A stretch of DNA of 64,000 bases from an uncultured Sulfitobacter sp. (lineage in GTDB: Bacteria; Pseudomonadota; Alphaproteobacteria; Rhodobacterales; Rhodobacteraceae), in the NCBI GenBank assembly GCA_905182645.1, contig CAJJCJ010000006.1:62001-126000 (forward strand), written 5' to 3'. The notes below the pieces were generated by a model, which saw only the letters and a list, made by a program, of their open reading frames with translations, searched no databases and was not told where the DNA came from. Each line of letters starts with the position of its first letter. The stretch's first letter is position 1. Below are positions 16,135 through 35,202 of the stretch, piece after piece. A program made the translations under genes and the position numbers.

Positions 16135-17939
16135 CAAAACGTCCGCTCTTTCGGGGCAAACTGCTTGGTGTTGATGCCGCCTTGCTTTTCAGTTGTCAGC
16201 GCCTTGGTAATCACTGGGCGGTATGACAAATCGACCTTGGTGCCATCGACATTCGCAATCGTGTGCACGCGCCAGTTTTCATCGTCGCGGGTTGCATAAT
16301 CTTCGTGGGCATGCGCACCACGGCTTTCCTTGCGGGCCTCGGCGCCGACAATCGTGGCCATCGCGTTTGGCATCAAGTTGGTCAGCTCAAGCGTTTCCAT
16401 CAGGTCCGAATTCCAGACCATTGAGCGATCAGTGACCTTGATACCGTCCATCTTGGACGCAACAGAAGTCATCTTTTCAACGCCCTCTTTAAGGGTTTTA
16501 TCGGTACGGAACACAGCAGCATCGGCTTGCATCGCCTTTTGCATTTCAAGGCGCAATTCCGCAGTGCCAACATCACCTTTAGCATGGCGCAAGCCATCAA
16601 ATCGGTCAAACGCTGCGTCCACGGATGACTGGTTCAGCACAGGGTTTGCGCTGTCACGATCAACGGTTTTACCTGCCTGAATGGCAGCAGCACGGCCAAA
16701 CACCACGAGGTCAATTAAGCTATTGGACCCAAGACGGTTCGCACCATGCACAGACGCACAGCCCGCTTCACCCACTGCCATCAAACCGGGAACAACCGCG
16801 TTCGGATCCTTCTTGGTCGGGTTCAAAACCTCACCATGATAATTCGTCGGAATACCGCCCATGTTATAATGCACAGTCGGCAGCACAGGGATTGGTTCCT
16901 TTGTCACGTCAACACCCGCAAAGATGCGCGCGCTTTCCGAAATACCAGGCAAGCGCAGGTTCAGCGCCTCGGCGGGCAAGTGGTTCAAGTTCAGGTGGAT
17001 ATGATCGCCGCCTGTGCCAACACCACGGCCTTCACGAATTTCCATGGTCATACAGCGGGACACGTAATCGCGCGGGGCCAAATCTTTGTAATTTGGGGCA
17101 TAACGCTCCATGAAACGCTCGCCTTCAGAGTTAGTCAGATAACCACCCTCGCCGCGCGCACCCTCAGTAATCAGGCAGCCTGCGCCGTAAATGCCGGTCG
17201 GGTGGAACTGCACAAATTCCATGTCCTGCAATGGCAGCCCCTGACGGGCGACCATGCCGCCGCCATCACCGGTACAGGTGTGGGCAGATGTGGCGCTGAA
17301 ATACGCGCGACCGTAACCACCAGTGGCAAGCACAGTGGTCTTGGCGTTGAACACATGCATCGTGCCGTCGTCCAGCTTCCACGCGACAACACCCTGACAT
17401 TGACCGTCTTCGGACATGATCAAATCAGTGGCGAAATATTCGATATAGAATTCAGCCTTCTGCTTCAGGCTTTGCCCATAAAGCGTATGCAAAATCGCGT
17501 GACCAGTCCGGTCGGCAGCAGCACAAGTCCGCTGCACAGGCGGGCCTTCACCAAATTCAGTTGTATGACCACCAAACGGGCGCTGATAAATCTTACCCTC
17601 TTCGGTGCGCGAAAACGGAACACCGTAATGCTCAAGCTCGTAAACCGCCTTGGGGGCTTCGCGGGCAAGGTATTCCATCGCATCCGTATCACCAAGCCAG
17701 TCAGACCCTTTGACCGTGTCATACATATGCCACTTCCAACTATCAGGGCCCATGTTGCCAAGCGATGCTGCAATACCACCTTGGGCGGCAACAGTATGGG
17801 AACGGGTCGGGAAAACCTTGGTGATACACGCGGTCTTTAGACCTTGTTCAGCCAGACCAAGCGTCGCGCGCAAACCAGCACCACCGGCGCCAATGACAAT
17901 CGCGTCAAAAGTGTGGGTTTCATATTCATAAGCAGCCAT
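16134..17939 (-). CDS. sdhA: Succinate dehydrogenase flavoprotein subunit
   Basis: 601 residues. The FAD-binding [17 protein letters not shown] is near residue 17, the covalent-FAD site [10 protein letters not shown] near 47, catalytic blocks [10 protein letters not shown] and [22 protein letters not shown], and the C-terminal [11 protein letters not shown]-type motif appears as [13 protein letters not shown]. It oxidises succinate to fumarate at the inner side of the cytoplasmic membrane and passes electrons to SdhB. It is third in the sdhCDA..B operon. Confidence 0.97.
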
Positions 17940-17962: not shown

Positions 17963-18334
17963 TTAAAGCGCGATACGCAGAACGGCGAATACGCCAAACG
18001 CTGCAGCACCATATGACAAACAGATCATCGCAATCAACAGCACCTTGCGGGCAACGCCGTGTACGTAATCTTCAATCAACGTCTGCACGCCCTTGCGGAA
18101 ATGGTAGAACGTTACAAACATCGTCAGCGCTGCAATCGTCGCAGGCACTGGACGGCTATAATAGGTAATGACCTCTTCGTATGAGCCACCCAAAGTGGCG
18201 CCAAACTGAAAGATGAAAATCGGCAAAAGCAATAGCATCGCAACCGAGCTGATCATCATGTGCCAATGGCTCAGCGTGCCAGATTTGGCGGACCCCGTCC
18301 CAATCGCACGCTTTCGATCTGTCATAAATGTCAT
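17963..18334 (-). CDS. sdhD: Succinate dehydrogenase membrane anchor subunit D
   Basis: 123 residues with three transmembrane helices (about 27-50, 60-80, 95-120). The [17 protein letters not shown] start and the histidine-containing second helix ([18 protein letters not shown]) are typical of alphaproteobacterial SdhD, providing haem b and quinone contacts. It lies 12 bases after sdhC and 23 bases before sdhA. Confidence 0.9.
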
Positions 18335-18346
18335 GTCAGATACTCC

Positions 18347-18730
18347 TTATACAACAATGACGGTCAGAACGGTCATCAGCACGGATGCAATGATCATAAC
18401 CAAACCGGCAGTTTCAGATTTATCGACATCAAGCATATAGCCCATGTCCCAGATCAAATGGCGAATGCCGCCAAACATGTGATACCAGACAGCCCACGTC
18501 GACAAGAACAGCACCAGATCCCCGAACCAGCTGCGCATGAACCCGTCAGCGGTTACAAATGCGTCAGGGCCAGCAGCGGCAGCAACAAACCACCAGACGA
18601 TCATCAATGCAGCGACCAGCAACGCGTTGCCGGTAATACGTACGAAGATCGATGTGATCGACGTCAATTGTGGGCGGTAAATTGTCAAGTGTGGTGAAAG
18701 TGGGCGATTGCCGCGGTTCACATCAGCCAT
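18347..18730 (-). CDS. sdhC: Succinate dehydrogenase cytochrome b556 subunit
   Basis: 127 residues with three membrane helices. The conserved RPLSPHLTIYRPQLTS and the haem-ligand helix YHMFGGIRHLIWDMG identify the family. I start at 18730 (MADVNRGN) with AAGGA upstream; the longer open frame is not supported. It is the first gene of the sdh operon; a pair of GTGATCAC palindromes lies about 120-150 bases upstream. Confidence 0.93.
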   Translation of the reverse strand: MADVNRGNRPLSPHLTIYRPQLTSITSIFVRITGNALLVAALMIVWWFVAAAAGPDAFVTADGFMRSWFGDLVLFLSTWAVWYHMFGGIRHLIWDMGYMLDVDKSETAGLVMIIASVLMTVLTVIVV

Positions 18731-18849
18731 TGGTGTTCCTTCGTGTCTGCGCAGGTTTGGGCCTTTGTGCATGATATATTTCGCAGTGTCACGCAGCCTA
18801 CCCTTTAAAAATGGTGAATAATTCACCCAATTGGCAAAAATTCGAATTA

Positions 18850-18878
18850 GTGATCACACGCAAAATATTTGTGATCAC
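18850..18878. promoter_or_regulatory. Paired GTGATCAC operators upstream of the sdh operon
   Basis: GTGATCAC at 18850-18857 (in TTAGTGATCACACG) and at 18871-18878 (in TTTGTGATCACAAG), centres 21 bp apart, two helical turns. The same pair with the same spacing is found before sucC (24650-24678), and a single copy before gntR (34491-34498). This is probably a binding site for a GntR-type regulator. Confidence 0.7.
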
Positions 18879-18908
18879 AAGTTACGAAGTTTTCGAGGGA
18901 AACTTGGA

Positions 18909-19934
18909 TCACAGTGGCATCAACGCCCAATAATCCAGATCCAGCAGAACCTCCGGCAAATACTTACCATCGTCACCGCGCAGATCACCCGCTTTGCCCT
19001 TGGTCGCAACAAGCCGCAAACGCACTGCGCCAACACCCGGCGCATCAACATCCGCCTTATCCAGCACCTCTGTCCAAGCCCTCACAGTATCGCCCGCAAA
19101 ACATGGGCTCGCATGTGCGCCACCGTTCAGTGCGGCAATCATCTGCGCATTGGCCAGCCCGTTAAACGACAGCGCGCGCGCCAATGAAATCACATGACCG
19201 CCATAGATCAGCCGCTTACCGTCGGCACGGTTGGTCGCATCAAAATGCACCTTGGACGTGTTCTGCCACAGTCGCGTGGCCATCATATGCTCTGCTTCTT
19301 CAATCGTCACACCATCTACATGGTCAATCACCTCACCCACGCCGTAATCGCCCCAGCGATGCGGCTCACCTGCCAATGCAAAATCGTAATGCGTAAAATC
19401 CAGACCCTTTGGAATGATCAGATCAGCAGGATCAACGACCTTGGACAGTTCTGGCACAACAGGCGTCGGCGCAGGCCCGTCAGCGCGGCGGCGGACCATG
19501 ACCCAACGGACAAATTCCATCAGCACGTCGCCATGTTGATTGCGGCCAGTGGTGCGGACCCAAACAATCCCCGTCTTGCCGTTTGAATTTTGCTTAACGC
19601 CAATCACCTCGGACGATGACGTCACGGTATCACCCGCCCAAAGCGGCGTAATCCAACGGCCCTCGGCATAGCCAAGATTGGCAACAGCGTTTAGCGACAC
19701 ATCTGGCACAGTTTTGCCAAACACTGTATGAAACGTGATAAAATCGTCAATAGGGCTGCACGGCAGGCCACAATCTTGGGCAAACATATCCGACGAATGC
19801 AAGGCGTGACGAGCGGGATACAGCGCGTGGTAAAGCGCGCGTTCACCCATGTTAATAGTGCGGGGCACCGCATGGGTGATCACATCACAAACGGCGTAAT
19901 CCTCGAAAAACCGACCTGCATTCGTCTTTGACAT
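18909..19934 (-). CDS. mch: Mesaconyl-CoA hydratase (beta-methylmalyl-CoA dehydratase)
   Basis: 341 residues with two MaoC-like hot-dog domains. Characteristic stretches are GRFFEDYAVCDVITHAVPRTI, NLGYAEGRWITPLWAGDTV and KVHFDATNRADGKRLIYGGHVISLARALSF (split by position here only). The enzyme hydrates mesaconyl-C1-CoA to beta-methylmalyl-CoA in the ethylmalonyl-CoA pathway. Start at 19934 (MSKTNAG) is chosen because the ATG overlaps the TAA of the upstream DUF1737 gene (TAATG), and the length then matches the family. It is the last gene of mcl2-nnrU-DUF1737-mch. Confidence 0.92.
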   Translation of the reverse strand: MSKTNAGRFFEDYAVCDVITHAVPRTINMGERALYHALYPARHALHSSDMFAQDCGLPCSPIDDFITFHTVFGKTVPDVSLNAVANLGYAEGRWITPLWAGDTVTSSSEVIGVKQNSNGKTGIVWVRTTGRNQHGDVLMEFVRWVMVRRRADGPAPTPVVPELSKVVDPADLIIPKGLDFTHYDFALAGEPHRWGDYGVGEVIDHVDGVTIEEAEHMMATRLWQNTSKVHFDATNRADGKRLIYGGHVISLARALSFNGLANAQMIAALNGGAHASPCFAGDTVRAWTEVLDKADVDAPGVGAVRLRLVATKGKAGDLRGDDGKYLPEVLLDLDYWALMPL

Positions 19935-20137
19935 TAGACAGCGCCCAACTTCATCTCGCGGGAATATTCGACGTCTGCTTGCTTGGTAACAGCCTGCGCA
20001 CATCGCATCACGCCATTGGCCTGATCAAACGCATACTGCGGGCTGCCATGCAGTGCCCAACCCTTTGACATCGCCTCTGTAACGCGGTGACAAAAGTTGG
20101 ACGTGTCGTCCTCGGTGATCAATCGGTAAACAAGCAT
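19934..20137 (-). CDS. DUF1737 domain protein
   Basis: 67 residues, matching DUF1737: YRLITEDDTSNFCHRVTEAM then SKGWALHGSPQYAFD. Function unknown. It is coupled to mch by a TAATG overlap and lies three bases after nnrU, so it is clearly part of the ethylmalonyl-CoA operon. Small proteins of this type often accompany metabolic enzymes; a regulatory or assembly role would be conjecture. Confidence 0.75.
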   Translation of the reverse strand: MLVYRLITEDDTSNFCHRVTEAMSKGWALHGSPQYAFDQANGVMRCAQAVTKQADVEYSREMKLGAV

Positions 20138-20140
20138 CAA

Positions 20141-20686
20141 TTATCCAAACGGGCTCGGGCCGACCACCATGTGGATCAGCGCAACAACAACAAACACCAC
20201 GCCCGTGGCAGCAATCGCGGTGATTTCTTTCTTAATCGGCACCGCGTGGTACGGCATGCGGGCACCTTGGATACCATTGATCAAAACGATCTCAACTGCG
20301 GCCCATAACGCCATCCCGCCAAACAGTAAAATCGACGGGGTATCGCCGTTCACCAGCACATGGGCGCCAGACCAAACGATCAGGGCGGTAAGCTGCGGAT
20401 GACGAATAAACTTTGTAATAGATGTCTTAGCGCCAGATGCCGCGAACAGATAAAACGCAAACAGCATCAACAGGTTATTCACGCCCGTCAGGCCACTCGT
20501 GCGATCCCAAAGCACAACGCCCTCAGCACCGCGATAGCCGATCACCATCAAAATGGTCGCAATGATCGACCCAAAAGCAACGATAACCTTGCCCTTTTCG
20601 CCAAAGCTGGCGCGATGATCTGGTGCAACCCGTTTCCAGACATGAACAAGGGTCCACAAAAGTAGACCAAGAATAATAATCGTCAT
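20141..20686 (-). CDS. NnrU family membrane protein
   Basis: 181 residues with about five hydrophobic segments and the NnrU pattern HPQLTALIVWSGAHVLVNGD, WAAVEIVLINGIQGARMPYH. The family was first described next to denitrification genes but is widespread; the related MAPEG/isoprenylcysteine methyltransferase-like fold suggests membrane enzymology of unknown substrate. It overlaps mcl2 by 4 bases (ATGA). No nitrate or nitric oxide reductase genes are seen in this window. Confidence 0.8.
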   Translation of the reverse strand: MTIIILGLLLWTLVHVWKRVAPDHRASFGEKGKVIVAFGSIIATILMVIGYRGAEGVVLWDRTSGLTGVNNLLMLFAFYLFAASGAKTSITKFIRHPQLTALIVWSGAHVLVNGDTPSILLFGGMALWAAVEIVLINGIQGARMPYHAVPIKKEITAIAATGVVFVVVALIHMVVGPSPFG

Positions 20687-21525
20687 GATGCCTCCAATGC
20701 GGCGATGGCCGCGGCTTTGGCCAAGGTCGCCTTTGCCGTGACGATATGCAAGTTCTCGACGATCTTGCCGCCTACAACGGCCACGCCTTGCCCGTCTGCT
20801 TCGGCCGCATCAAAAGCGGTAATCTGGCGGTTGGACAGATCAATCTCGGCATCTGACGGACCAAAAGCCACATTGCAAATCGCGACCTGCGCGGGATGGA
20901 TCAACGTCTTGCCATCAAACCCCATATCACGGCCCTCAGCACATTCAGCGGTCAAACCTTCGTCGTCCTTGAACGCGTTATACACACCGTCCAACACGAC
21001 AATCCCAGCAGCCTTGGCGGCAAGCACAGACATCTGCAAAGCGGTCATCAAGGCAGCGCGCGAGCGCGAATTCAGATCCTTCGCCAGATCATTTGTGCCC
21101 ATAACAAAGCCAGCCATGCGCGGATGGGCGGCAATAGCGGCTGCATTCAATACACCCATAGGGGTCTCTATCATCGCCCAAATTGGTTTATCAGGTAACA
21201 GCGCAGCAAATACATCCAGATCAGCAGGGCCATTTACCTTTGGCAACAGCACAGCATCGCAGTCCATCAAAGCAATCGCCGCGGCGTCATCAGCGCCCCA
21301 AACAGTATCAAGCGCGTTCATCCGCACCACCCTAAGGCGCGGACCATAGCCACCTGCCTCAAGGGCAGTTGCCAATGTGCTCCGCGCAACGACTTTAGCA
21401 TCTGGGGCAACTGCATCTTCCAAATCAAACAGGATGACATCTACCGGTAAGTCCCGAGCCTTATCCAAAGCCCGCTTTTTTGATCCAGGTATATATAGTG
21501 CAGACCGATAGGGGCGATGATTCAT
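20683..21525 (-). CDS. mcl2: CitE-like (3S)-malyl-CoA thioesterase / beta-methylmalyl-CoA lyase family
   Basis: 280 residues of the HpcH/HpaI-CitE TIM-barrel superfamily: RSALYIPGSKKRALDKARDL, VILFDLEDAVAPDAK with metal-binding acids, WAMIETPMG, and DGKTLIHPAQV. The length matches Mcl2-type malyl-CoA thioesterase (about 280-285) better than the about 318-residue Mcl1 lyase, so I favour hydrolysis of (3S)-malyl-CoA to malate, the last ethylmalonyl-CoA pathway step; this assignment between paralogs is an inference. It heads the operon with mch, with an AGGAAG ribosome binding site. Confidence 0.8.
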   Translation of the reverse strand: MNHRPYRSALYIPGSKKRALDKARDLPVDVILFDLEDAVAPDAKVVARSTLATALEAGGYGPRLRVVRMNALDTVWGADDAAAIALMDCDAVLLPKVNGPADLDVFAALLPDKPIWAMIETPMGVLNAAAIAAHPRMAGFVMGTNDLAKDLNSRSRAALMTALQMSVLAAKAAGIVVLDGVYNAFKDDEGLTAECAEGRDMGFDGKTLIHPAQVAICNVAFGPSDAEIDLSNRQITAFDAAEADGQGVAVVGGKIVENLHIVTAKATLAKAAAIAALEAS

Positions 21526-21698
21526 TTGATTCTTCCTCGTAATATTGTTGCTCCCAAAGGGTCAGATATTTCCGGATTATTCAACCACAAATACGCCGCA
21601 GCGCAGCATGAGCAGCCCACCGTCACGGTGGGTTAACAATATTGGCGGATCTACACCACAGTTTAGGGCATGTCATTTTGACCCTGAAAGGCGACCCC

Positions 21699-22013
21699 AT
21701 GATACGTAATTTTTACCTTTTGTCCTTTGGTATCGGTGCGATGTTACTTGCGGCCAACCACGCGCAAGCCCAAGGTGCCAACTGTGCGGACCATGCAACC
21801 ATCGTTGAACAGCTCGCACAAAACTATGGTGAACGGCGATAATCGATGGGGCTCGGCGACAACAATACAATCCTCGAGGTGTTTGCATCCGACACCACCG
21901 GCACGTGGACCATCACGGTAACAGCGGCAGGCGGGCTGACATGTCTCGTAGCTGCGGGCCGCGCGTTTCAGATGACAACTGACGCCCTGCCCGACACCAA
22001 CGACGGAGCCTAG
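21699..22013 (+). pseudogene. Small exported protein gene interrupted by an in-frame TAA
   Basis: From ATG 21699 (AAAGG upstream) the frame encodes a signal peptide ending HAQAQ and GANCADHATIVEQLAQNYGERR, then TAA (21840-21842), then continues in frame SMGLGDNNTILEVFASDTTG, TWTITVTAAGGLTCLVAAGR up to TAG 22011-22013. Both halves match one conserved small periplasmic family I know from Rhodobacterales (C-x(n)-L-x-x-x-Y-G-E-x-R-Q-S-x-G-L-G ... V-E-V-F-A-S), where the stop position is Gln. Without the stop the protein would be 104 residues. The second half retains its sense, so the lesion looks recent. Its end overlaps the convergent TauE gene by 4 bases. Confidence 0.75.
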
Positions 22014-22762
22014 GCCAAAGCGACCCAGATCAGGCGCAGTCCCGTCAGCACCAACAACACATAGGTCAGCGCAAAAAACGCCCTCTCAGGAACCAAATGG
22101 TGGGCTTTTATCCCGATAAACGCGCCAAGTAATGCAAAGGGGGCCAACAACAGGGCCCCTTTAAATGTGTCCCACGAGAATATCCCAAGATAAAAATACG
22201 GGATGAACTTCATCCAGTTAATCGCCCAAAACGTGATGACCGTTGTGGCTTGATACGACAGCTTGCTTAGCCCCTGAGACAACAGAAACACCGCCGTTGG
22301 TGGGCCACCCGCGTGGCTGACAAAACTGGTGAACCCACCGACGGCCCCCGCCATCCATGCATAAGATCGGCGAAACGGTAAACGGCGCAGCTTGAGCAGC
22401 CCAAGCTGTTGCGACACTTGGAATGCGACAAACGCCAGACAAATCGCCCCGATCAAAACACGGAACACATCTGCATCAACAAAGGCGTAAACCGCTGCCG
22501 CGATCGCCACACCAGGGATCGCGCCCAAAACCATGCCCTTGGCGGATGGGGCATGCCATTTACCCCAATAGGGCTTCAAAGTCGCCGCATCAATCAGCAT
22601 GAACAGCGGCAAAACAATACCCAACGCAGCCCCCGGCGGGACGACCAACGCCAGAATCGCACCAGCGGCAAATGCAGCACCAGAGCCAAATCCACCCTTG
22701 GATATGCCACCGAAAATGATCGCAGGGATGCCCAGCACAAAGAATTGTAGATTAAACTCCAT
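22010..22762 (-). CDS. TauE/SafE family exporter-like membrane protein
   Basis: 250 residues with about eight transmembrane segments. GISKGGFGSGAAF near residue 20 and GAVGGFTSFVSHAGGPPTAVFL near 140 are the two family motifs. Start at 22762 (MEFNLQFF); the longer open frame would run into mdh. The substrate is unknown and it is not closely similar to the TauE at 2239. It is divergent from mdh. Confidence 0.85.
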   Translation of the reverse strand: MEFNLQFFVLGIPAIIFGGISKGGFGSGAAFAAGAILALVVPPGAALGIVLPLFMLIDAATLKPYWGKWHAPSAKGMVLGAIPGVAIAAAVYAFVDADVFRVLIGAICLAFVAFQVSQQLGLLKLRRLPFRRSYAWMAGAVGGFTSFVSHAGGPPTAVFLLSQGLSKLSYQATTVITFWAINWMKFIPYFYLGIFSWDTFKGALLLAPFALLGAFIGIKAHHLVPERAFFALTYVLLVLTGLRLIWVALA

Positions 22763-22912
22763 CGTCGAATTTATCTCGTTTTTACATTGTTCTCGTATCG
22801 TTAGCGCAAACAGACTGGATGAACTATCACGATTTTTGTGATGCCGCGCTGCAGCGGACTTGCGCGCAGGACGGCAAAGCCTTACCCAAAGCGCCAAATA
22901 CAACCCTGATAG

Positions 22913-23887
<975 letters not shown>

Positions 23888-23907
23888 GCCACGTTTGATC
23901 GTTTAAG

Positions 23908-23935
23908 AAAGCGTCCCTTCGGGGGCGCTTTTTGC
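23908..23935 (+). terminator. Intrinsic terminator of mdh
   Basis: AAAGCGTCCC, loop TTCG, GGGGCGCTTT forms a 10-bp stem (one T-G pair) with a stable tetraloop, then TTGCGTTTT. It starts 21 bases after the mdh stop. Confidence 0.9.
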
Positions 23936-24037
23936 GTTTTGGGCAAAGAACGGGCGCGCATTTGCAATGCCTGCTCAGCGGACTTAGCAACCTTCCAGAA
24001 GCTGCTCCACATATTGTACAGCTCAAGTTTCAGGCTT

Positions 24038-24448
24038 CTAATCTGGCTGCGTCGCGAAGGAAACTACATCTTCGCCAAGCTGATCCCAATGAGGTTTGTC
24101 ACGCTCAAAAATGACAACTTCAACCTCCAGCCCACGAGCATCGTCCATTGTGCCAAGAGATAGTGTTAGATGATCAGGTAGTCGCGTGTTCTTACCATAA
24201 ATTGGGCTGCCGCAACTCGCACAGAATACCTTGGTAACCTCTGAGCCTATGTCAGACGAGTAACTGAATTCACTCAATTTTCCACTCACGCTAACCGCAT
24301 CTAAAACGAACATGGCGCCGACTGTATGACCTGTCCCGCTCAATCGGCGGCATTCTTCACAGTGGCATTGAGCAACGACGATAGGCGGTCCGTCAGCGGT
24401 GTATTGGACCTCGCCGCAAAGGCATTTCCCTGTGTATTCCTTTGTCAT
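24038..24448 (-). CDS. GFA / CENP-V domain protein (glutathione-dependent formaldehyde-activating-like)
   Basis: 136 residues with the zinc-binding cysteine pattern of the GFA family: GKCLCGEVQY near residue 9, CHCEECRRLSGTGH near 33, and FCASCGSPIYGK near 79. Members bind zinc; most are not true formaldehyde-activating enzymes and their substrates are unknown. I start at 24448 (MTKEYTG); the longer frame to 24610 has no domain support. Confidence 0.8.
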   Translation of the reverse strand: MTKEYTGKCLCGEVQYTADGPPIVVAQCHCEECRRLSGTGHTVGAMFVLDAVSVSGKLSEFSYSSDIGSEVTKVFCASCGSPIYGKNTRLPDHLTLSLGTMDDARGLEVEVVIFERDKPHWDQLGEDVVSFATQPD

Positions 24449-24649
24449 ATTTCGGACACTACTACGCCAACAGAGAGGTGCAACCACAAAGCAAGAAGCG
24501 GCTGGCGAGTTCGCCAGCCTGTTTATGTTCTGAGGTGGATGATCTGTCAGTAAGAGCTCGAAGCAGACGTTTGCCAACCGACATTCCTTTGCACAACGCC
24601 CCATAACCACCTCCAGAACCCAGAGATTCTCATCAACACACTTAATTTT

Positions 24650-24678
24650 GTGATCACACTATTTTAACGTGTGATCAC
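24650..24678. promoter_or_regulatory. Paired GTGATCAC operators upstream of sucC
   Basis: GTGATCAC at 24650-24657 (TTTTGTGATCACAC) and 24671-24678 (GTGTGATCACAAAT) are again centred 21 bp apart; together they form a 13-base inverted repeat around a 9-base spacer. They lie about 100 bases before the sucC start. The rest of the 328-base divergent gap 24449-24776 shows no other gene. Confidence 0.7.
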
Positions 24679-24776
24679 AAATGTCGCTTTTTTGGGTGTT
24701 CTTCATAAAACGTTGTTCTTTTGCGGATCGAGCTGTGGTTCAAATGACCAAACCCAGCAACGCAAGGGACGATTTG

Positions 24777-25970
24777 ATGAACATCCACGAATACCAAGCC
24801 AAGGCACTTTTAAAGTCATATGGCGCTCCGGTCAGCGATGGCCGCGCCGTGCTCAAGGCAGAAGACGCAAAAACAGCCGCGGGCGAAATGGATGGCCCGC
24901 TTTGGGTTGTTAAGGCGCAAATCCACGCAGGTGGCCGCGGCAAAGGTTCCTTCAAAGAAGCCGACGCAGGCGAAGCCGGTGGCGTACGTTTGACAAAATC
25001 TGTCGAAGAAGCATCGCAAGAAGCCAAGAAAATGCTGGGCCGCACATTGGTCACGCACCAAACTGGTCCTACTGGTAAGCAAGTCAACCGCGTCTACATC
25101 GAAGACGGCGCTGGGATTGAAACCGAACTTTACCTCGCACTTGTCGTTGATCGCCAAACAAGCCGCATCGGCTTTGTCTGCTCCACCGAGGGCGGCATGG
25201 ACATCGAAGAAGTCGCAGCCTCCACGCCAGAGAAAATCATCAACTTCACCGTTGATCCAGCCACGGGCTACCAAGCCTTCCACGGTCGCCGCGTTGCTTT
25301 CTCACTTGGCCTTGTTGGCCCGCAGGTCAAACAATGCGTGAAACTGATGGGGCAATTGTACCAAGCATTCACCGAAAAAGACATGGAGATGCTGGAAATC
25401 AACCCACTGATCGTCACTGATAAGGGCGATCTCAAGGTGCTTGATGCCAAGATATCTTTCGACGGCAACGCGATCTACCGCCACGCCGACATCGCCGCCC
25501 TGCGCGACGAGACCGAAGAAGATCCAAAAGAACTGGCAGCGTCCAAGTTCGACCTGAACTACATTGCGCTTGATGGCGAAATTGGCTGCATGGTCAACGG
25601 CGCAGGTCTGGCGATGGCCACAATGGACATCATCAAACTTTACGGCGCATCCCCTGCTAACTTCCTTGATGTTGGTGGCGGTGCGACAAAAGAAAAAGTC
25701 ACTGAAGCATTCAAGATCATCACCTCTGACCCGCAGGTCAAAGGCATCCTTGTGAACATCTTTGGCGGCATCATGCGGTGCGACGTTATCGCCGAAGGCG
25801 TTGTCGCAGCCGTAAAAGAGGTCGGCCTGAAAGTGCCGCTTGTTGTCCGCCTTGAAGGCACCAATGTGCAGCTGGGTAAGGACATTATCAACAATTCGGA
25901 CGTAGATATTATTGCGGCCGATGATCTGAAAGACGGCGCAGAAAAAATCGTAAAAGCGGTGAAGGGGTGA
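24777..25970 (+). CDS. sucC: Succinyl-CoA synthetase beta subunit (ADP-forming)
   Basis: 397 residues. The N-terminal [18 protein letters not shown], the ATP-grasp region ([15 protein letters not shown]), [10 protein letters not shown] and the C-terminal CoA-ligase part ([15 protein letters not shown]) are typical. Start 24777 is chosen over the earlier in-frame ATGs because AAGGGA is correctly spaced and homologs begin MNIHEYQ. sucD follows after 122 bases, a longer gap than usual. The paired palindromes upstream suggest co-regulation with sdh. Confidence 0.96.
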
Positions 25971-26092
25971 CGTTAAGGGTCCCATTCCCTGCGTCAAAAG
26001 GGTCGACACCGATCAGCTGGCTCAGCAAATCGGTATCATTCGATGACCTGCCCTCCCCACTTGCGACAGAACTAAAAGCATAGGATCTCGAC

Positions 26093-26977
26093 ATGGCCAT
26101 TCTCGTAAATGAAAACACTCGCGTAATCTGTCAGGGCCTCACCGGCTCACAGGGCACATTCCACTCTGAACAAGCGATCGCCTATGGGACCAAAATGGTC
26201 GGCGGCGTGACACCGGGAAAGGGCGGTCAAACCCACCTTGACCTGCCAATCTTCAACTCCGTGCACGAGGCCCGCCACGTCACGCAGGCCAACGCCTCCG
26301 TGATCTACGTGCCGCCGCCATTCGCAGCCGATTCCATTCTGGAAGCGATTGATGCGGAGATGGAACTGATCATCTGCATCACTGAAGGCATTCCTGTGCT
26401 TGACATGATGCGCGTCAAACGGGCGCTTGAAGGGTCCAAATCCCGCCTGATCGGGCCAAACTGCCCCGGTATCATCACACCAGACGCCTGCAAGATCGGC
26501 ATCATGCCCGGCCACATCCACAAACGCGGATCAGTCGGCGTTGTTTCGCGCTCCGGCACGCTGACTTACGAGGCTGTTAAGCAGACATCCGATCTTGGCC
26601 TCGGCCAGTCCACTGCTGTGGGCATCGGCGGCGACCCGATCAAGGGCACAGAGCATATCGACGTTTTGAACATGTTCCTCGACGACGACGAGACACACTC
26701 GATGATCATGATCGGTGAAATCGGCGGCTCCGCAGAAGAAGAAGCGGCCGAATTCCTGGCAGACCAACGCAAGAAAGGCCGCTGGAAACCAACCGCAGGC
26801 TTCATCGCAGGTCGCACGGCCCCTCCAGGTCGCCGCATGGGCCACGCTGGCGCAATCGTCGCTGGCGGCAAAGGTGACGCTGAATCCAAAATCGAAGCAA
26901 TGAAATCCGCAGGCATCATCGTCGCCGACAGCCCAGCCACACTTGGTGAAGCTGTAGCGGAAGCCATCGCTAAATAA
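26093..26977 (+). CDS. sucD: Succinyl-CoA synthetase alpha subunit
   Basis: 294 residues. CoA-binding [16 protein letters not shown] near residue 15, [20 protein letters not shown] near 122 and the phosphohistidine site [17 protein letters not shown] near 240 identify it. It forms the catalytic heterotetramer with SucC, converting succinyl-CoA to succinate with substrate-level phosphorylation. sucA follows after 68 bases. Confidence 0.96.
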
Positions 26978-27045
26978 TCCAAACGCCTCCGCCGTTCGCG
27001 CGGGGGCGCCCCATTCGGCAACCCATAGCGGCTGAGGTTAAACCC

Positions 27046-30006
27046 ATGAACGACCAATCCCCCAACGACGTCCTCCACGCATCGTCCTTCCTACAAGGAC
27101 ATAACGCCGAATACGTCGAGCAGCTTTACGCGCGCTACGCCGATAATCCCGGTGCGGTTGATGCAAGCTGGCAAGAGTTCTTCAAATCGCTCGGCGATGC
27201 CCCAGCGGACGCCAAGGCCGAGGCCGCAGGCCCGTCATGGGCACGCAGTGATTGGCCGCCAATTCCAAACGACGACCTGACAGCAGCGCTTGATGGTCAA
27301 TGGGCCGTTGAACCAGAAGCAACTGGTAAAAAGATCACTGCAAAAGCCGCTGAAAAAGGTGTCGGCCTTAACGAACAACAGGTTCGCCACGCCGTCCTTG
27401 ATAGCATCCGCGCGCTGATGATCATTCGAGCCTACCGCATTCGTGGGCACCTGATTGCCGATCTCGACCCGCTGGGCATGCGCGAACTGAAACCGCACCC
27501 AGAACTGGACCCCGAATCTTACGGCTTCACCGCTGCCGACATGGATCGCCCGATCTTTATCGACAATGTGTTGGGCCTCGAAATCGCATCGATGAACCAG
27601 ATCATCGCCATCGTGCGCCGCACGTATTGCGGCACATTCGCGCTGCAATACATGCACATCTCCAATCCTGAAGAGGCCCGTTGGCTCAAAGAACGGATCG
27701 AAGGCTACGGCAAGGAAATCACCTTTACGCAAAACGGGCGTAAGGCAATCCTGAACTCGCTGGTACAAGCCGAAGGCTTCGAAAAATTCCTGCATGTGAA
27801 ATACATGGGGACCAAGCGGTTCGGCCTTGATGGCGGCGAAACCCTGATCCCTGCGATGGAACAGATCATCAAACGCGGCGGTCAGCTTGGCGTCGAAGAA
27901 ATCATCATCGGCATGCCGCACCGTGGGCGCCTGTCCGTGCTGGCCAACGTCATGCAAAAACCGTACCGCGCGATCTTCAACGAATTCCAAGGCGGGTCGT
28001 CCAAACCCGAAGACGTCGACGGGTCCGGCGATGTGAAATACCACCTTGGCGCGTCATCCGACCGCCAGTTTGACGACAACACAGTGCACCTGTCGCTGAC
28101 AGCAAACCCGTCCCACCTAGAGGCTGTGAACCCCGTCGTCATCGGTAAGGTCCGCGCGAAGCAAGACCAGAAAAAAGACGAAAACCGCGAAAAAGTTATG
28201 GCGATCCTGCTGCACGGCGACGCGGCCTTTGCTGGCCAAGGCGTCGTGGCCGAAGGGTTCGGTTTGTCCGGCCTTAAAGGGCACAAAACCGGCGGCACCA
28301 TGCACATCGTGGTCAACAACCAAATCGGCTTTACAACCGCGCCACACTTTAGCCGCTCGTCTCCCTACCCGACTGACATCGCGCTCATGGTTGAGGCCCC
28401 GATTTTCCACGTCAACGGCGACGACCCAGAGGCAGTTGTTCACGCCGCCCGCGTCGCAACTGAGTTCCGCCAAAAGTTCCACAAAGACGTGGTTCTCGAC
28501 ATCATCTGCTACCGCCGCTTTGGTCACAACGAAGGCGACGAGCCGATGTTCACCAACCCGCTGATGTACAAAAAGATCAAAAAGCAAAAAACAACGCTGA
28601 CGCTTTATACTGAGCGCCTGATCAAAGATGGGCTCATCCCCGAAGGCGAGATCGAGGATTTGAAAACAGCGTTTCAGGCCCACCTGAACACTGAATTTGA
28701 AACCGGTAAATCCTATAAGCCGAACAAAGCTGACTGGCTTGACGGCAAGTGGTCGCATCTTGATCGCAAAGACGAAGATTATCAGCGTGGCGCCACCGCA
28801 ATTGACGAGAAAACATTCAAGGATGTAGGCCGCGCATTGACGACACCGCCGGAAGATTTCCCGCTGCATAAAACCATCAACCGCTTAATAGACGCCAAGG
28901 CAAAGATGTTCGACAGCGGTGAAGGGTTCGATTGGGCCACCGGCGAAGCACTCGCATTCGGGTCGCTTCAGACCGAAGGGTATCCTGTGCGTCTGTCCGG
29001 CCAAGACTGTACTCGCGGCACATTCAGCCACCGCCATTCGGGTCTAATTAACCAAGACACTGAAGAACGGTACTACCCGCTCAACCACATCCGCAAAGGC
29101 CAAGCGCAGTACGAAGTCATCGACAGCATGCTGTCCGAATACGCGGTGCTCGGGTTTGAATACGGCTACTCGCTGGCCGAGCCAAACGCGCTGACACTGT
29201 GGGAAGCCCAGTTCGGCGATTTCGCCAACGGCGCGCAGATCATGTTCGACCAATTCATCTCGTCTGGTGAAAGCAAATGGCTGCGCATGTCCGGCCTCGT
29301 TTGTCTGCTGCCGCACGGCCATGAAGGCCAAGGGCCAGAGCATTCCAGCGCACGTCTGGAACGGTTCCTGACCATGTGCGGCGGGGATAACTGGATCGTG
29401 GCCAACTGCACGACGCCTGCGAACTACTTCCACATCCTGCGCCGACAGTTGCACCGGAGCTACCGCAAACCGCTCATTATGATGACACCGAAATCGTTGC
29501 TGCGGCACAAAATGGCCGTATCCAAAGCCGAAGAGTTCACAACAGGATCGTCGTTCCACCGCGTCCTGTGGGACGATGCACAGCACGGCAATTCGGACAC
29601 CACGCTTGTGGCTGACGATAAGATTAAGCGCGTCGTGATGTGTTCCGGCAAGGTCTACTTCGACCTTATGGAAGAACGCGACACACGCGGGATCTCCGAC
29701 GTCTACATCATGCGCTACGAACAGTTCTATCCATTCCCAGCACAGTCCGCGGTTAAGGAGTTGGAACGGTTTAAAAACGCTGAAATGGTCTGGTGTCAGG
29801 AAGAACCAAAAAACCAAGGGGCTTGGTCATTCATGGAACCCAATCTTGAATGGGTCCTGACCCGCATCAAAGCCAAAAACACGCGCCCGATTTACGCGGG
29901 CCGCTCCGCCGCCGCCTCACCTGCAACAGGTATGGCCAGCAAACACAAAGCAGAACAAGCAGCCCTCGTAAGCGATGCGCTAACAGTTGAAGGATCAAAA
30001 TCATGA
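27046..30006 (+). CDS. sucA: 2-oxoglutarate dehydrogenase E1 component
   Basis: 986 residues, full length for the family. An N-terminal [21 protein letters not shown] segment is the E2-binding/subunit-binding motif; thiamine-diphosphate domain blocks include [32 protein letters not shown] and [16 protein letters not shown]; the C-terminal transketolase region includes [21 protein letters not shown] and [11 protein letters not shown]. It overlaps sucB by 4 bases (ATGA), ensuring coupled production of E1 and E2. Confidence 0.97.
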
Positions 30007-31175
30007 GCACAGAAGTCCGCGTCCCAACCCTTGGCGAATCCGTGACCGAAGCAACGGTTGCAACATGGTTCAAAAAACCCGGCGATGCCGTCGCTGTCGA
30101 TGAAATGCTCTGCGAGCTGGAAACTGACAAAGTCACGGTCGAAGTGCCAAGCCCCGTGGCAGGCACATTGTCAGAAATCGTCGCTTCTGAGGGCGAAACA
30201 GTGGCCGCCGACGCGCTGCTTGCGCAAATCTCTGAAGGGACCGCAGCAGCCCCCAAGGCCGAAGCACCAAAAGCCGCAGCAGCACCCACAGCCACAAAAG
30301 ACATCGAAGACGCGCCATCTGCGAAAAAGCTGATGGCGGAAAACAACCTGACGGACGTTGACGGCACCGGCAAAGATGGCCGCGTAATGAAAGAGGACGT
30401 GCTTAAGGCATTATCTGGTTCGGCCCCAGCGCCTGCGGCGACTGCGCCCACCCCAGTGCGGGCCCAATCAGATGACCCCCGTGAAGAGCGCGTCAAAATG
30501 ACCCGCCTGCGTCAGACCATCGCAAAGCGCCTCAAGGAATCCCAAAACACCGCCGCTATGCTCACCACCTATAACGAGGTCGACATGACAGAGGTGATGG
30601 CCCTGCGCACCCAGTACAAAGACCTGTTCTTGAAAAAGCACGGCGTCAAGCTTGGCTTCATGTCCTTCTTCACCAAGGCCTGCATCCATGCGCTCAACGA
30701 AGTCCCAGAAGTGAACGCCGAAATCGACGGCACCGATGTGGTCTACAAGAAATTCGTCAACATGGGCATCGCCGCTGGCACACCAACCGGCCTCGTGGTC
30801 CCCGTGATCAACGACGCCGATCAGATGTCATTCGCAGGCATCGAGAAGGCAATCAGCGTCATGGGCGGCAAAGCCCGCGACGGCAAACTGTCGATGGCTG
30901 ACATGCAAGGCGGCACATTCACCATCTCCAACGGTGGCGTCTACGGCTCGCTGATGTCCTCGCCCATCCTGAACCCCCCGCAGTCCGGCATCCTTGGCAT
31001 GCACAAAATCCAAGACCGCCCAATGGCAATCAACGGCGAAGTCGCGATCCGCCCAATGATGTATCTGGCCCTGTCCTACGACCACCGGATCGTCGATGGC
31101 AAAGGCGCGGTAACCTTCCTCGTGCGCGTCAAAGAAGCACTCGAAGATCCACGTCGCCTCCTCATGGATCTGTGA
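30003..31175 (+). CDS. sucB: 2-oxoglutarate dehydrogenase E2 component (dihydrolipoyl succinyltransferase)
   Basis: 390 residues. One lipoyl domain (lipoyl-lysine K43 in ETDKVTVE), an Ala/Pro/Lys-rich linker (about 78-98), a peripheral-subunit-binding domain ([13 protein letters not shown] to DVLKAL, about 103-137) and a catalytic domain ending with the active-site [13 protein letters not shown]. It transfers succinyl groups to CoA. A hairpin lies 18 bases downstream; two MAPEG genes then separate it from lpd. Confidence 0.96.
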
Positions 31176-31193
31176 TTCGCGACGCTAGACTTG

Positions 31194-31219
31194 CAGCACT
31201 CGCCCTGAGGCGGGTGCTG
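31194..31219 (+). terminator. Hairpin downstream of sucB
   Basis: CAGCACTCGCC, loop CTGA, GGCGGGTGCTG: an 11-bp stem with one T-G pair. There is no T-run after it, so it may be a partial terminator or 3' processing element separating sucAB from the MAPEG genes. Confidence 0.5.
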
Positions 31220-31292
31220 TACGTGGGCGCGGAACGCTTGGTTTCGACACTATAATTATGCGCTGATTTCTTAACTCGAGAATGGACCCAAA

Positions 31293-31679
31293 ATGACTGT
31301 TGAACTCACATACCTCCTCTATGCTGTGATCCTCTTGATTGCACACATCATCATTCAAGCCACATTCTCTGACCTATCCAAAGGTATCTTTTGGGCGATT
31401 GGGCCCCAAGATGAACCGCGCGACCAAAATGCGATTGCGGATCGCATACAACGGGCTTTGCGCAACTACCTAGAGACCTTCCCCGCGTTTGCCGCACTGG
31501 CCATATTGATCGCAGTCGCCGAAAGAAGCAGTGCAATGTCCATGAATGGCGCAGCGCTATATTTCTGGTCTCGGGTTGCATATGTTCCCGCGTTCGCATC
31601 TGGTATTCCATTGGTCCGGTCCGTCGCGTGGTTTGCTTCCCTGGGTGGGCTTGCGATGATGGTTCTGCCGTTGCTATGA
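31293..31679 (+). CDS. MAPEG family membrane protein (first of a pair)
   Basis: 128 residues with four hydrophobic helices; the block NAIADRIQRALRNYLETFPAFAALAIL near residues 49-75 is the MAPEG (membrane-associated eicosanoid/glutathione metabolism) signature. Bacterial members may be glutathione-linked enzymes, but most are uncharacterised. It overlaps a second MAPEG gene by 4 bases, so the two likely assemble together in the inner membrane. Confidence 0.82.
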   Translation: MTVELTYLLYAVILLIAHIIIQATFSDLSKGIFWAIGPQDEPRDQNAIADRIQRALRNYLETFPAFAALAILIAVAERSSAMSMNGAALYFWSRVAYVPAFASGIPLVRSVAWFASLGGLAMMVLPLL

Positions 31680-32086
31680 CCCCCGAACTCACAGTTCTCA
31701 CCTACGCCGCCCTCCTCCAGTGCATTCAATTCGCCCTCATGGCGATCCCTGCAAACATGGAACTCGGCACGGGCAAAACATCATCCCCACGTGACCTCGA
31801 CCGCCTCGGCAAACCGATGATCGAATTGCTATCAGTCAGTACTGCCCGCCTTGCGCGTGCAATGAACAACCATTTCGAGGCGCTGATCCTTTTCACCATC
31901 GCCATTACCGTGGTGTCGCTGTCGGACAAAACCACAGCGTTCACCACCGCCTGCGCATGGACCTACCTCGGCGCGCGCGTCCTTTATATCCCTGCATACT
32001 ATTTCGGCTGGACCCCATGGCGCTCCCTGATCTGGTTTGCTGGATTCCTCGCAACTTTGCTTATCTTAGTCACGGCCCTCATTTAA
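31676..32086 (+). CDS. MAPEG family membrane protein (second of a pair)
   Basis: 136 residues and four membrane helices; RLARAMNNHFEALILFTIAITVV is the MAPEG motif. Start 31676 (MTPELTVL) is favoured by the ATGA overlap with the preceding gene; the open frame extends 16 codons further without support. It is related to its neighbour and probably arose by duplication. A 72-base gap precedes lpd. Confidence 0.82.
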   Translation: MTPELTVLTYAALLQCIQFALMAIPANMELGTGKTSSPRDLDRLGKPMIELLSVSTARLARAMNNHFEALILFTIAITVVSLSDKTTAFTTACAWTYLGARVLYIPAYYFGWTPWRSLIWFAGFLATLLILVTALI

Positions 32087-32158
32087 AATTCGACATATGC
32101 GAAACTTATGTAGAACTTATACAATAATTACGCCCCAAATCGACCCAAGGAGAGACCC

Positions 32159-33547
32159 ATGTCCAGCTACGACGTCATCATTCTCGGTGCAGGCCCCGGC
32201 GGCTATGTATCCGCAATTCGCTGTGCCCAATTGGGTCTGAAAACCGCTATCGTCGAAGGGCGCGACACCCTTGGCGGCACCTGCTTGAACGTCGGCTGTA
32301 TCCCGTCCAAGGCGATGCTACACGCGACAGAAATGCTGTACGAGGCGGAACATAACTTCGCGGAAATGGGCCTGAAAGGAAAAGCACCTTCTGTCGACTG
32401 GAAGCAGATGCTGACCTACAAAGAAAACACGATCAACCAGAACACTGGTGGCATCGAATTCTTGATGAAAAAGAACAAGATAGACTGGATCAAAGGCTGG
32501 GGATCAATCCCTGCTGCGGGCAAAGTTAAAGTCGGCGACGACACCCATGACGCCAAACATATCATCGTGGCATCTGGGTCCGAACCAGCATCCCTCCCCG
32601 GTGTAGAGGTCGACGAGAAAACCGTCGTGACCTCCACCGGCGCGCTTGAATTGGGCAAAATTCCGAAATCTATGGTGGTGATTGGTGCGGGCGTTATCGG
32701 CCTTGAACTAGGCTCCGTTTATGCCCGCCTTGGCACCGACGTAACGGTTGTTGAATTCCTCGATACCATCACACCCGGCATGGACAAAGACATCGTGCGC
32801 GCGCTTAAAAGAACTCTTGAAAAGCAAGGGCTTAAGTTCATTCTTGGGGCCGCCGTACAGGGCACTGCGATCAAGAATAACAAGGCCACCGTCAGCTATA
32901 AACTGCGTAAAGATGACAGCGAACACGCCCTGCAAGTCGACACCGTTTTGGTCGCCACAGGGCGTAAACCCTTCACCAAGGGGCTCGGTTTAGAAGACCT
33001 CGGCGTCACAATCTCGGACCGCGGCCAGATCAAAACCGATGATCATTATCGCACCAACGTCGCAGGTATCTACGCCATCGGCGACGCGATTGACGGACCA
33101 ATGTTGGCCCATAAAGCCGAAGACGAAGGCATGGCCGTCGCCGAAGGCATCGCAGGCCAGCACCCGCATGTGAACTACGGCGTGATCCCTGGCGTGATCT
33201 ACACCCACCCCGAAGTTGGCACCGTCGGACAGTCCGAAGACGTGCTGAAAAAGGAAGGCCGCAAGATCAAAGTCGGCAAATTTTCCTTTATGGGCAACGC
33301 ACGCGCCAAGGCAAACTTCATGGGCGAAGGGTTTGTGAAGATCATCGCGGACGCCGAAACCGACCGCATTCTCGGGGCGCATATCATCGGCCCAATGGCT
33401 GGCGATCTGATCCACGAAATCTGCGTCGCAATGGAATTTGGCGCCGCCGCAGAAGACCTCGCGCGGACTTGCCATGCGCACCCAACATACTCCGAAGCAG
33501 TGCGCGAAGCCGCCCTTGCTTGTGGTAACGGTGCCATCCACGCATGA
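32159..33547 (+). CDS. lpd: Dihydrolipoyl dehydrogenase (E3)
   Basis: 462 residues. FAD-binding [17 protein letters not shown], redox disulfide C42/C47 in [16 protein letters not shown]-binding [34 protein letters not shown] and the C-terminal catalytic His in [14 protein letters not shown] are intact. It reoxidises lipoyl groups of the SucAB complex. AAGGAGAG precedes the ATG. It overlaps a small membrane gene by 4 bases. Confidence 0.96.
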
Positions 33548-33834
33548 TGCCAGAGATTACCTTACTTATTGTGAACGCTATATTTTTAGCGTTCACATAC
33601 CTCGGGGTTTATCCAGGTCTTACGACAAAAACGATCAACCTAATCTTGATTTACGATGCAGTGATTAGCTGCGCGGCATTGCTTGTTGCGGGGCTTTTGT
33701 TTTGGGGTAGCGACACCGATTTCAGTCTGATTTTCTTCTCAACTAATTGGGCCGTGTTCGCGATCATCACTCTTAGCCTTATGGAACTGCCGCTATTCGC
33801 GTGGTTCGCCAAGAAACACAACCTCGACATTTAG
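33544..33834 (+). CDS. Small membrane protein coupled to lpd
   Basis: 96 residues, three hydrophobic helices (about 3-22, 30-52, 60-85). No family recognised. The ATG overlaps the lpd TGA (ATGA), so it is co-translated with E3. It overlaps the convergent gntR by 4 bases. Similar small membrane proteins follow lpd in some relatives, from general memory; function unknown. Confidence 0.7.
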
Positions 33835-34481
33835 CCCTTCAACATGCGCAGCCCTTGGGTCGCGTCGGTCCGCACGGCCAGCCGTAATCCTGGATCATCT
33901 CCAGCTTTTAGGGCGGCCAAAATCAACCGATGATGATAGGGCGGCTCGGTCCGGTTTAACCGGCCGTAAAGCGCGCGCATCGTTGGCCCCAACTGCAGCC
34001 AAACCGTTTCCGTCATGGCCAGCATCGCAGGCGCTTGGGCCCGCAAATATAGCGTGCGGTGAAATTCCAAATTCATCCGAATATAACCCGATGCATCATG
34101 GCGCGCGACCATTTGGCTGATGCCGTTATTAATCGTCTCTAACCGCTCAATCAGGGCAAAATGGGCACGTGGCAACGCGCGTGTGGCCAATTCTGGCTCC
34201 AGCATTGCACGCAGTGTCGCAAGTTCTTCGATCCGTTCATTTGACAGCACTGGCGTAGATACACGACCCGACGACGATAGGAATAGCGCACCTTCAGCCA
34301 CCAAACGGCGTACCGACTCGCGCGCAGGCGTCATTGATACATCGTAGGTTTTTCCAATGCCGCGCAAAGTTAACGCCTCTCCTGGTCCCAACTCACCATG
34401 CATAATGCGGGTCCGCAGGCTGCGATAGACCCGTTCATGGGCTGGCATGTTTGGATCAATGGGGCGTGGTTGTAACAACAT
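33831..34481 (-). CDS. GntR-family transcriptional regulator (FadR/FCD subfamily)
   Basis: 216 residues: an N-terminal winged helix-turn-helix (VYRSLRTRIMHGELGPGEAL, then MTPARESVRRLVAEGAL as recognition region) and a C-terminal all-helical FCD ligand-binding domain (NLEFHRTLYLRAQ with the metal-site His). Such regulators sense organic acids. The palindrome TTTGTGATCACAT sits 10 bases ahead of its start codon, and the same palindrome occurs in pairs before sdhC and sucC. I infer that this protein autoregulates and controls TCA-cycle genes; the ligand may be a TCA intermediate. R. sphaeroides is recalled to have a GntR-type TCA regulator (AkgR), a possible counterpart. Confidence 0.85.
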   Translation of the reverse strand: MLLQPRPIDPNMPAHERVYRSLRTRIMHGELGPGEALTLRGIGKTYDVSMTPARESVRRLVAEGALFLSSSGRVSTPVLSNERIEELATLRAMLEPELATRALPRAHFALIERLETINNGISQMVARHDASGYIRMNLEFHRTLYLRAQAPAMLAMTETVWLQLGPTMRALYGRLNRTEPPYHHRLILAALKAGDDPGLRLAVRTDATQGLRMLKG

Positions 34482-34490
34482 GATGCCTTT

Positions 34491-34498
34491 GTGATCAC
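34491..34498. promoter_or_regulatory. Single GTGATCAC palindrome in the gntR leader
   Basis: GTGATCAC inside TTTGTGATCACATC, 10-17 bases upstream of the gntR start codon and overlapping its ribosome binding region, as expected for an autorepressor. No clear second copy lies 21 bp away on either side. Confidence 0.6.
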
Positions 34499-34512
34499 AT
34501 CACGCGAACGGG

Positions 34513-35202
34513 TCAATCACCGAAATTGACGCGGTGCAGAACATCACCGTTTTTGCGCAACCACGCACGGTGAACGGCGTAATCAGGACAAATGCGTTCA
34601 ACCACAGCCCAGAAGGCATCAGAATGGTTCATCTCTACCAAATGCGCGACCTCGTGGGCGGCGACGTAATCAAGCACGTCAGGCGGCGCCATGATCAGCC
34701 GCCACGAATACATCAATACCCCCTCGGACGAACACGACCCCCACCGTGACCGCGTATCACGAATACTTAAGCGGCTATACGTGCGCTCCACCTGTGCGGC
34801 ATAGCGATCTGATGCAGCCGCCAATTCATCGCGGGCCCGCAGTTTTAAGAACGCCTTGGCACGAACGCCCGCAGTTGGGACGTCAGGCACCTGTAGGGTG
34901 CCTTCACGCATCGCCGTTCGCTTTACGGGCCCGACAACAACTGGCAGTTCAGCACCACGGTAAGGGACCGTGCCACCAGCCGCAACAACGGCTTCTGGTG
35001 CAAGACGAATCAGATGGGTGCGCAGCCATAGCTCGCGGGTCTCAAGAAAGTGTATTCCTTCGCGCAGCGGGCTACGTTGCGGCACAGTTAGCGTAACTTT
35101 TCCGTCCAAACGCGATACGCGAAGCGAAAGTTTACGCGCACGAGCAGATCGGCGTACCGATACGTCAATTGGGGGGTTACCGTGCAGCCTGTGAACGCTC
35201 AT
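34513..35202 (-). CDS. YgjP/SprT-like zinc metallopeptidase (DUF45)
   Basis: 229 residues. The zinc-binding H-E-x-x-H is in HEVAHLVEMNHSDAFW near residue 190, and the preceding TRSRWGSCSSEGVLMYSWRL is the hallmark of the YgjP/M48-like family. The N-terminus RRSARARKLSLRVSRLDGKV is also typical. A soluble cytoplasmic peptidase or protein-processing factor; substrate unknown. The upstream gene TIGR02300 is divergent. Confidence 0.85.
   Translation of the reverse strand: MSVHRLHGNPPIDVSVRRSARARKLSLRVSRLDGKVTLTVPQRSPLREGIHFLETRELWLRTHLIRLAPEAVVAAGGTVPYRGAELPVVVGPVKRTAMREGTLQVPDVPTAGVRAKAFLKLRARDELAAASDRYAAQVERTYSRLSIRDTRSRWGSCSSEGVLMYSWRLIMAPPDVLDYVAAHEVAHLVEMNHSDAFWAVVERICPDYAVHRAWLRKNGDVLHRVNFGD

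Follow-up and report, generated by a model that had tools for sequence, protein, structure and literature searches.

This study concerns a predicted regulon of the tricarboxylic acid (TCA) cycle in a 64,000-nucleotide stretch of DNA from an uncultured Sulfitobacter sp. (contig CAJJCJ010000006.1, positions 62,001 to 126,000; this whole stretch is called the window), which carries the sdhCDAB and sucCD-sucAB-lpd operons and, on the lpd side, a regulator gene of the GntR family. Sequence comparison makes it very likely that this gene encodes AkgR, known from Rhodobacter sphaeroides, and that the regulator acts on sdh and suc here through paired operators built from the word GTGATCAC. We hold the overall reading, in which the regulator also represses its own gene, with high confidence. 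An earlier note on this DNA had proposed a GntR-controlled sdh/suc regulon; pair conservation and co-occurrence of pair and regulator argue for this proposal, which was right in substance, and the evidence supports its being the regulon already known as AkgR of R. sphaeroides. Known from one model organism, the regulator can now be placed in most of a family (363 of 394 sampled genomes), with a simple operator code that can be tested. In marine carbon turnover, bacteria of the Roseobacter type play a prominent part.

Predicted paired operators precede sdhC and sucC

The predicted operators are given by their positions in the window; no strand is assigned to them.

18850..18857: promoter-proximal operator of sdhC (predicted), GTGATCAC, from a word search; kept in relatives
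18871..18878: distal operator of sdhC (predicted), GTGATCAC, 21 bp from the proximal one; kept in relatives
24650..24657: distal operator of sucC (predicted), GTGATCAC, from a word search; kept in relatives
24671..24678: proximal operator of sucC (predicted), GTGATCAC, 21 bp from the distal one; kept in relatives
34491..34498: operator of gntR (predicted), GTGATCAC, 9 bases 5' of the ATG; kept in 77 of 97 relatives

All five copies, including the 21-bp pairs before sdhC and sucC, are present as they had been described. The sucC pair starts 127 bp upstream of its ATG (SucC start 24777) and the sdhC pair 148 bp upstream of its ATG (SdhC start 18730, minus strand). The single site at gntR also lies where the earlier note had placed it, at a distance of 9 bases from the ATG and not the 10 given there. 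The flanks, said to match, do so only in part: TTGTGATCACAA is exact at one site and carries 1, 1, 1 and 2 mismatches at the other four.

The word occurs seven times in the window against 1.14 expected from dinucleotide shuffles, and none of 100 shuffles reached seven. Both further copies, which the earlier note does not mention, fall within coding sequence, one at 10498 in an open reading frame (ORF) of 655 residues (10341-12308) that by our own reading is apparently a mutase, the other at 19876 in the mesaconyl-CoA hydratase ORF (18909-20003). Across the whole genome there are 60 copies, near the value of about 48 obtained when the shuffle rate of the window is scaled up, and the count of the single 8-mer was rejected as evidence for this reason. 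Exact 21-bp pairs tell more: two are present in the genome where about 0.001 would be expected from 60 sites placed at random, and it is therefore the pairs that carry signal, lone words being weak evidence. With two mismatches allowed, TTTGTGATCACAAA matches 33 places in the genome; these carry no gene assignment, and we claim no further members of the regulon from them.

The paired geometry is conserved across most of the family

A scan of this and related genomes for 21-bp pairs, as the earlier note had suggested, returned the two pairs of the genome itself and showed that, of 394 family genomes sampled at almost one per genus, 338 have an exact pair, usually twice. Within the genus the pair is found in 35 of 36 genomes, our own included, the exception (G001) being 83% complete, and it is found in none of 24 genomes from other families of the class. 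When spacings were compared in 198 family genomes, 164 had the 21-bp pair and 35 had a pair at any of thirty other spacings (22-51 bp) combined; many of the latter look to us like GC-rich coding stretches.

The pairs keep their place as well as their spacing. Conservation before sdh and sucC in relatives, which had been named as one of the points on which the proposal could fall, was seen upstream of both sucC and sdhC in 42 of 42 loci each (40 picked for holding two pairs, together with the window and R. sphaeroides). In these loci the distance from the start of the pair to the ATG is 126-159 bp for sucC and 144-220 bp for sdhC. Among loci fetched through gntR and not through the pair, all 11 readable sucC upstreams have the 21-bp pair; a further 23 were partial or of insufficient length, and none of the loci extended as far as sdhC. 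One genome (G229) has its sucC pair at 22 bp and others, described below, at 20 bp, so that sucC pairs use the whole range of 20-22 bp, which is two helical turns; the 20-bp result comes from the 19 loci read.

Perfect GTGATCAC pairs at other spacings occur in L271 (3343-3381, 31 bp), L275 (2713-2751, 31 bp), L272 (1468-1505, 30 bp), L276 (3060-3091, 24 bp) and L277 (2914-2945, 24 bp), and the stretches fetched for these five loci contain no suc, sdhC, sdhA, mdh, lpd or gntR match; possibly these pairs are operators of paralogous regulators. A further locus with a 22-bp pair (L273), which ends near its contig end, likewise has no such TCA or gntR match. In another family, a 35% identical paralogue (L261) has two GTGATCAC sites 24 bp apart (2277 and 2301) just past its gene, and paired use of the word may for this reason extend beyond the family.

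Operator and promoter architecture

In the 42 sucC pairs the outer flank is rich in T ahead of the distal site and reads AAA behind the proximal one, the inner flanks being mostly A(C/G) and (G/C)T. The sucC pair as a whole is therefore a dyad, and the sdhC pairs follow the same pattern more weakly. These flanks would be accounted for by two dimers placed symmetrically around a central dyad. The single gntR site has AT flanks on both sides, the paired sites mainly on the outside.

The sdhC pair stands at a nearly fixed distance from a presumed promoter element.

18787..18792, minus strand: GTGACA box (presumed -35 of sdhC), with the pair starting 86 bp away

In 39 of 42 loci (37 tallied by script, and two in which the script had stopped at an earlier GTGAC) a GTGAC box follows the pair start at 86-89 bp; in two it follows at 107-108 bp, and one locus has none. 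The jump of about 20 bp keeps the box on the same face of the helix. The pair itself ends about 60 bp upstream of the box.

The regulator is orthologous to AkgR by sequence and synteny

33831..34481, minus strand: gntR (AkgR orthologue by sequence), GntR and FCD domains by Pfam, 216 residues, 76% identical to the syntenic R. sphaeroides gene

The product had been taken for a FadR/GntR-type regulator, and Pfam bears this out, with an N-terminal GntR winged helix-turn-helix domain (PF00392, 47.9 bits, cut-off 27) and a C-terminal FCD domain (PF07729, 64 bits, cut-off 24.3). Residues N137, H141, H184 and D206 are invariant in 17 aligned sequences, a 31% identical paralogue included; their putative role as ligands was assigned by eye. 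FCD domains typically use an Asp and three His as metal ligands. If these four residues are the metal ligands, the usual Asp and the last His appear to have been changed to Asn and Asp.

One genome of the family sample was taken as R. sphaeroides 2.4.1, since the 24-base motif given in the excerpt of PMC4344238 matches one of the 394 genomes, at the published chromosome position. Its best match to the GntR product is 76% identical over 211 residues, the next paralogue reaching 30%, and is encoded about 750 bp after sdhB in the cluster lpd-sucBADC-mdh-sdhCDAB. That genome has two exact 21-bp pairs, one before sucC and one before sdhC. Locus-tag order and position, not a named record, identify this syntenic gene as RSP_0981 (AkgR), and on sequence identity and synteny we assign the window gene as its orthologue. 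In the window the gene and its YgjP-like neighbour flank the cluster on the lpd side; in R. sphaeroides (L169, 17663-18295) they are found past sdhB. As the block is otherwise syntenic, the two genes have moved within it. In a class-wide search, 12 of 289 genomes matched the GntR product at E<=1e-30: four strongly, all in the family of the window, the other eight being paralogues at 33-40% identity.

Regulator and paired operator co-occur

Relatives of the GntR product at E<=1e-40 are found in 363 of the 394 family genomes. Regulator and exact pair are both present in 331 genomes and both absent from 24, with 32 having the regulator only and 7 the pair only (Fisher p = 4e-17, indicative only: the genomes are related and hence not independent, the rows were transcribed by hand, and 11 regulator-less genomes were obtained by difference).

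We read the sucC upstreams of 19 of the 32 genomes with a regulator and no exact pair. Two perfect sites at 20 bp are present in 16, a 21-bp pair with one base changed in two, and no site in one (G396). The notion that a missing exact 21-bp pair means missing control was accordingly rejected. Among the 24 genomes with neither regulator nor pair, 11 were read: nine lack GTGATCAC within 350 bp of sucC (one of them carries a near copy with a single base different) and two have no recognisable start. A SucC match at E<=1e-100 is present in 23 of these 24 genomes, 21 of them at an identity of at least 68%, and absence of the sites therefore does not come from a missing operon; the best SucC matches in G080 and G393 are only 51-53% identical and may be paralogues, and G231 has none. 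A two-mismatch pair search of the 56 pair-less genomes was uninformative, with matches in 51, the hits listed looking to us mostly like coding chance.

The presumed gntR promoter carries a single predicted operator

Autoregulation, the second part of the earlier proposal, is likewise supported by sequence conservation: a perfect GTGATCAC lies within the last 75 bp upstream of gntR in 77 of the 97 distinct upstreams that remained once 14 of 111 loci had been excluded (13 as duplicates and L081 as incomplete), where mononucleotide shuffles give 0.1. The operator is mostly 16-17 bp before the start in relatives. In the remaining 20 upstreams, seven have a copy one base off; that of R. sphaeroides has no operator, its best candidate being three bases off.

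34511..34516, minus strand: TTGACC box (presumed -35 of gntR), 35 bp 5' of the ATG and 18 bp 5' of where the operator starts; shares bases with the upstream gene's stop codon

Of the 77 relatives that have the site, 69 show a distance of exactly 18 bp from the start of TTGAC to it. Because the box can overlap the upstream stop codon, part of its conservation could be coding; a GATTGAC context able to include that codon is found in 50 of the 77, and TTGAC is also present in loci that do not have this context. In the common arrangement TTGAC lies about 35 bp before the ATG, and transcription would therefore start at the ATG, giving a leaderless message, with the operator covering the spacer and the -10. 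Autorepression of gntR is likely from this geometry. As the R. sphaeroides gene has no site in its own promoter, autoregulation could have been missed in that model organism.

Proposed mechanism and alternatives

The sites, their spacing and conservation, their co-occurrence with the regulator and the promoter geometry are set out above; binding by the GntR product, cooperativity, activation of sdh and suc and autorepression are what we infer in addition. A dimer of the GntR product would recognise TTTGTGATCACAAA-like palindromes, and the composite operator ahead of the sdhCDAB and sucCD-sucAB-lpd promoters would hold two dimers next to each other at a distance of two helical turns. Placed well upstream of the presumed sdhC -35, the paired dimers would most probably activate transcription. 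At the regulator's own, possibly leaderless, promoter the spacer and -10 are overlapped by the single operator, and protein bound there should keep RNA polymerase out; the regulator would thereby limit its own amount. Activation and autorepression are suggested by the positions of the sites, together with the reported work on R. sphaeroides.

Further still, one rigid design may serve most of the family: sdh and suc would be activated from a composite operator whose two palindromes are 20-22 bp apart, and the leaderless regulator gene would be autorepressed through one palindrome exactly 18 bp from its -35. The single site would hold the regulator near threshold, as a homeostat, and the TCA response would be cooperative at those levels, an arrangement partly lost in some lineages, R. 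sphaeroides among them. We offer this as a tentative scheme, one that we think slightly more apt to fail than to hold. Natural variants (spacings of 20, 21 and 22 bp, loss of the gntR operator, genomes with neither regulator nor sites) serve as natural experiments on autoregulation and on the distance over which activation works.

Several observations weigh against the view that AkgR activates sdh and suc through the pairs and represses its own gene. The proposed direction of control follows from position and from the reported abstract on AkgR, and the support in this organism is sequence-based. In the sdhC and gntR regions of the window, strict sigma-70 scans returned no promoter, and no constant promoter box was found before sucC across the loci read. 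The perfect gntR operator is missing from 20 of 97 upstreams, R. sphaeroides included, and autoregulation is for this reason not universal. G396 has a divergent regulator and no site before sucC (one of the 19 read out of 32). Seven genomes have the pair and no regulator at the cut-off; five are less than 90% complete, but G173 (100%) and G315 (93%) are not. The reversed-pattern control of the pair searches is weak, since the reversed word contains CTAG, which is rare in many bacteria.

That the same regulator instead represses sdh and suc, in the manner of PdhR or FadR-type repressors, we consider unlikely. FCD regulators are often repressors and gntR's own site is at a repressor position, but the end of the sdhC pair, some 60 bp short of the GTGAC box, is a poor place from which to block polymerase, and AkgR (RSP_0981) is reportedly termed a direct activator of TCA genes in the abstract of Imam et al. 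(mBio, 2015). We give little credence to binding of the pairs by a paralogous GntR/FCD protein in place of the product of the neighbouring gene, GTGATCAC then being the word of a wider subfamily. Such a paralogue, 31% identical, does exist in this genome (C3:58550), the excerpt of PMC6365646 proposes GTGATCAC as the word used by a 32% identical Pseudomonas protein, and distant paralogues in other families (L259, L261, L264, L269) have the word in the 3.6 kb around their genes. However, no GTGATCAC occurs in the 3.6 kb around the paralogue of this genome, the pair tracks close relatives of the GntR product (E<=1e-40) across genomes, and gntR has the word in its own promoter region. A chance or non-regulatory word, such as a methylation or structural motif, would fit the near-chance genome-wide count of the single 8-mer (60 against about 48) but is scarcely credible given the 20-22 bp pairing before the same two operons, the family-wide conservation and the co-occurrence with the regulator.

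Relation to known systems

In the excerpt of PMC4344238, RSP_0981 (GntR) is predicted to control RSP_0967-6 (succinyl-CoA synthetase), RSP_0974-6 (sdh) and RSP_0965-62 (2-oxoglutarate dehydrogenase), and that of PMC6365646 counts GTGATCAC as one of the sites of AkgR. The system described here shares with the AkgR regulon the syntenic 76% identical gene, the sdh and suc targets, the word and the 21-bp pairs before sucC and sdhC; it differs in having gntR on the lpd side and not beyond sdhB, and in the gntR-promoter operator, present here and absent there. The link from regulator to operons is thus already published, and finding the same regulon in another genus is mostly confirmation. No description of the 21-bp pairing or the gntR operator was found in the literature searched, although the primary AkgR paper (mBio 2015, e02461-14) may contain it; the paired geometry, the 20-22 bp range, the geometry at the regulator's own promoter and the co-occurrence may be new.

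The nearest solved relative by sequence profile is McbR (YncC) of Escherichia coli (4p9f, E=6.5e-32). McbR targets are not known to include TCA genes. PS417_07240 of Pseudomonas simiae is proposed to use the same word, but it is 32% identical to AkgR, its motif lies before a deoxyribonate cluster, and the passage of PMC6365646 concerned gives it no TCA role. CceR (RSP_1663) is also predicted for sdh and mdh in the excerpt of PMC4344238, and differs in belonging to the LacI family and in recognising a different inverted repeat, not GTGATCAC. Words of the type (G/T)CGCTAAC, which by our own reading resemble half of a CceR-type repeat, stand between the GTGATCAC pair and the GTGAC box in the sdhC upstreams of L201, L202, L207, L226 and L235.

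Genes of the locus

14622-15401, minus strand: sdhB, by Pfam and tblastn to R. sphaeroides
16134-17939, minus strand: sdhA, by Pfam and tblastn to R. sphaeroides
17963-18334, minus strand: sdhD, by Pfam (Sdh_cyt) and tblastn to R. sphaeroides
18347..18730, minus strand: sdhC, first gene of sdhCDAB, by Pfam (Sdh_cyt); true start 18730
24777..25970, plus strand: sucC, by Pfam (ATP-grasp_2 and Ligase_CoA); true start 24777
26093-26977, plus strand: sucD, by Pfam
27046-30006, plus strand: sucA, by tblastn to the syntenic R. sphaeroides locus
30003-31175, plus strand: sucB, by Pfam
within 26093..33547, plus strand: two small ORFs between sucB and lpd, from the ORF list
32159-33547, plus strand: lpd, by Pfam
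34513..35202, minus strand: YgjP-like metallopeptidase gene, upstream of gntR, by Pfam (YgjP-like)

Between the sdhC operators and the presumed sdhC promoter, the minus strand carries a small hairpin, GGTGAATTATTCACC, followed by ATTTTT (18813-18827), which might terminate the transcript of the upstream mesaconyl-CoA hydratase gene.

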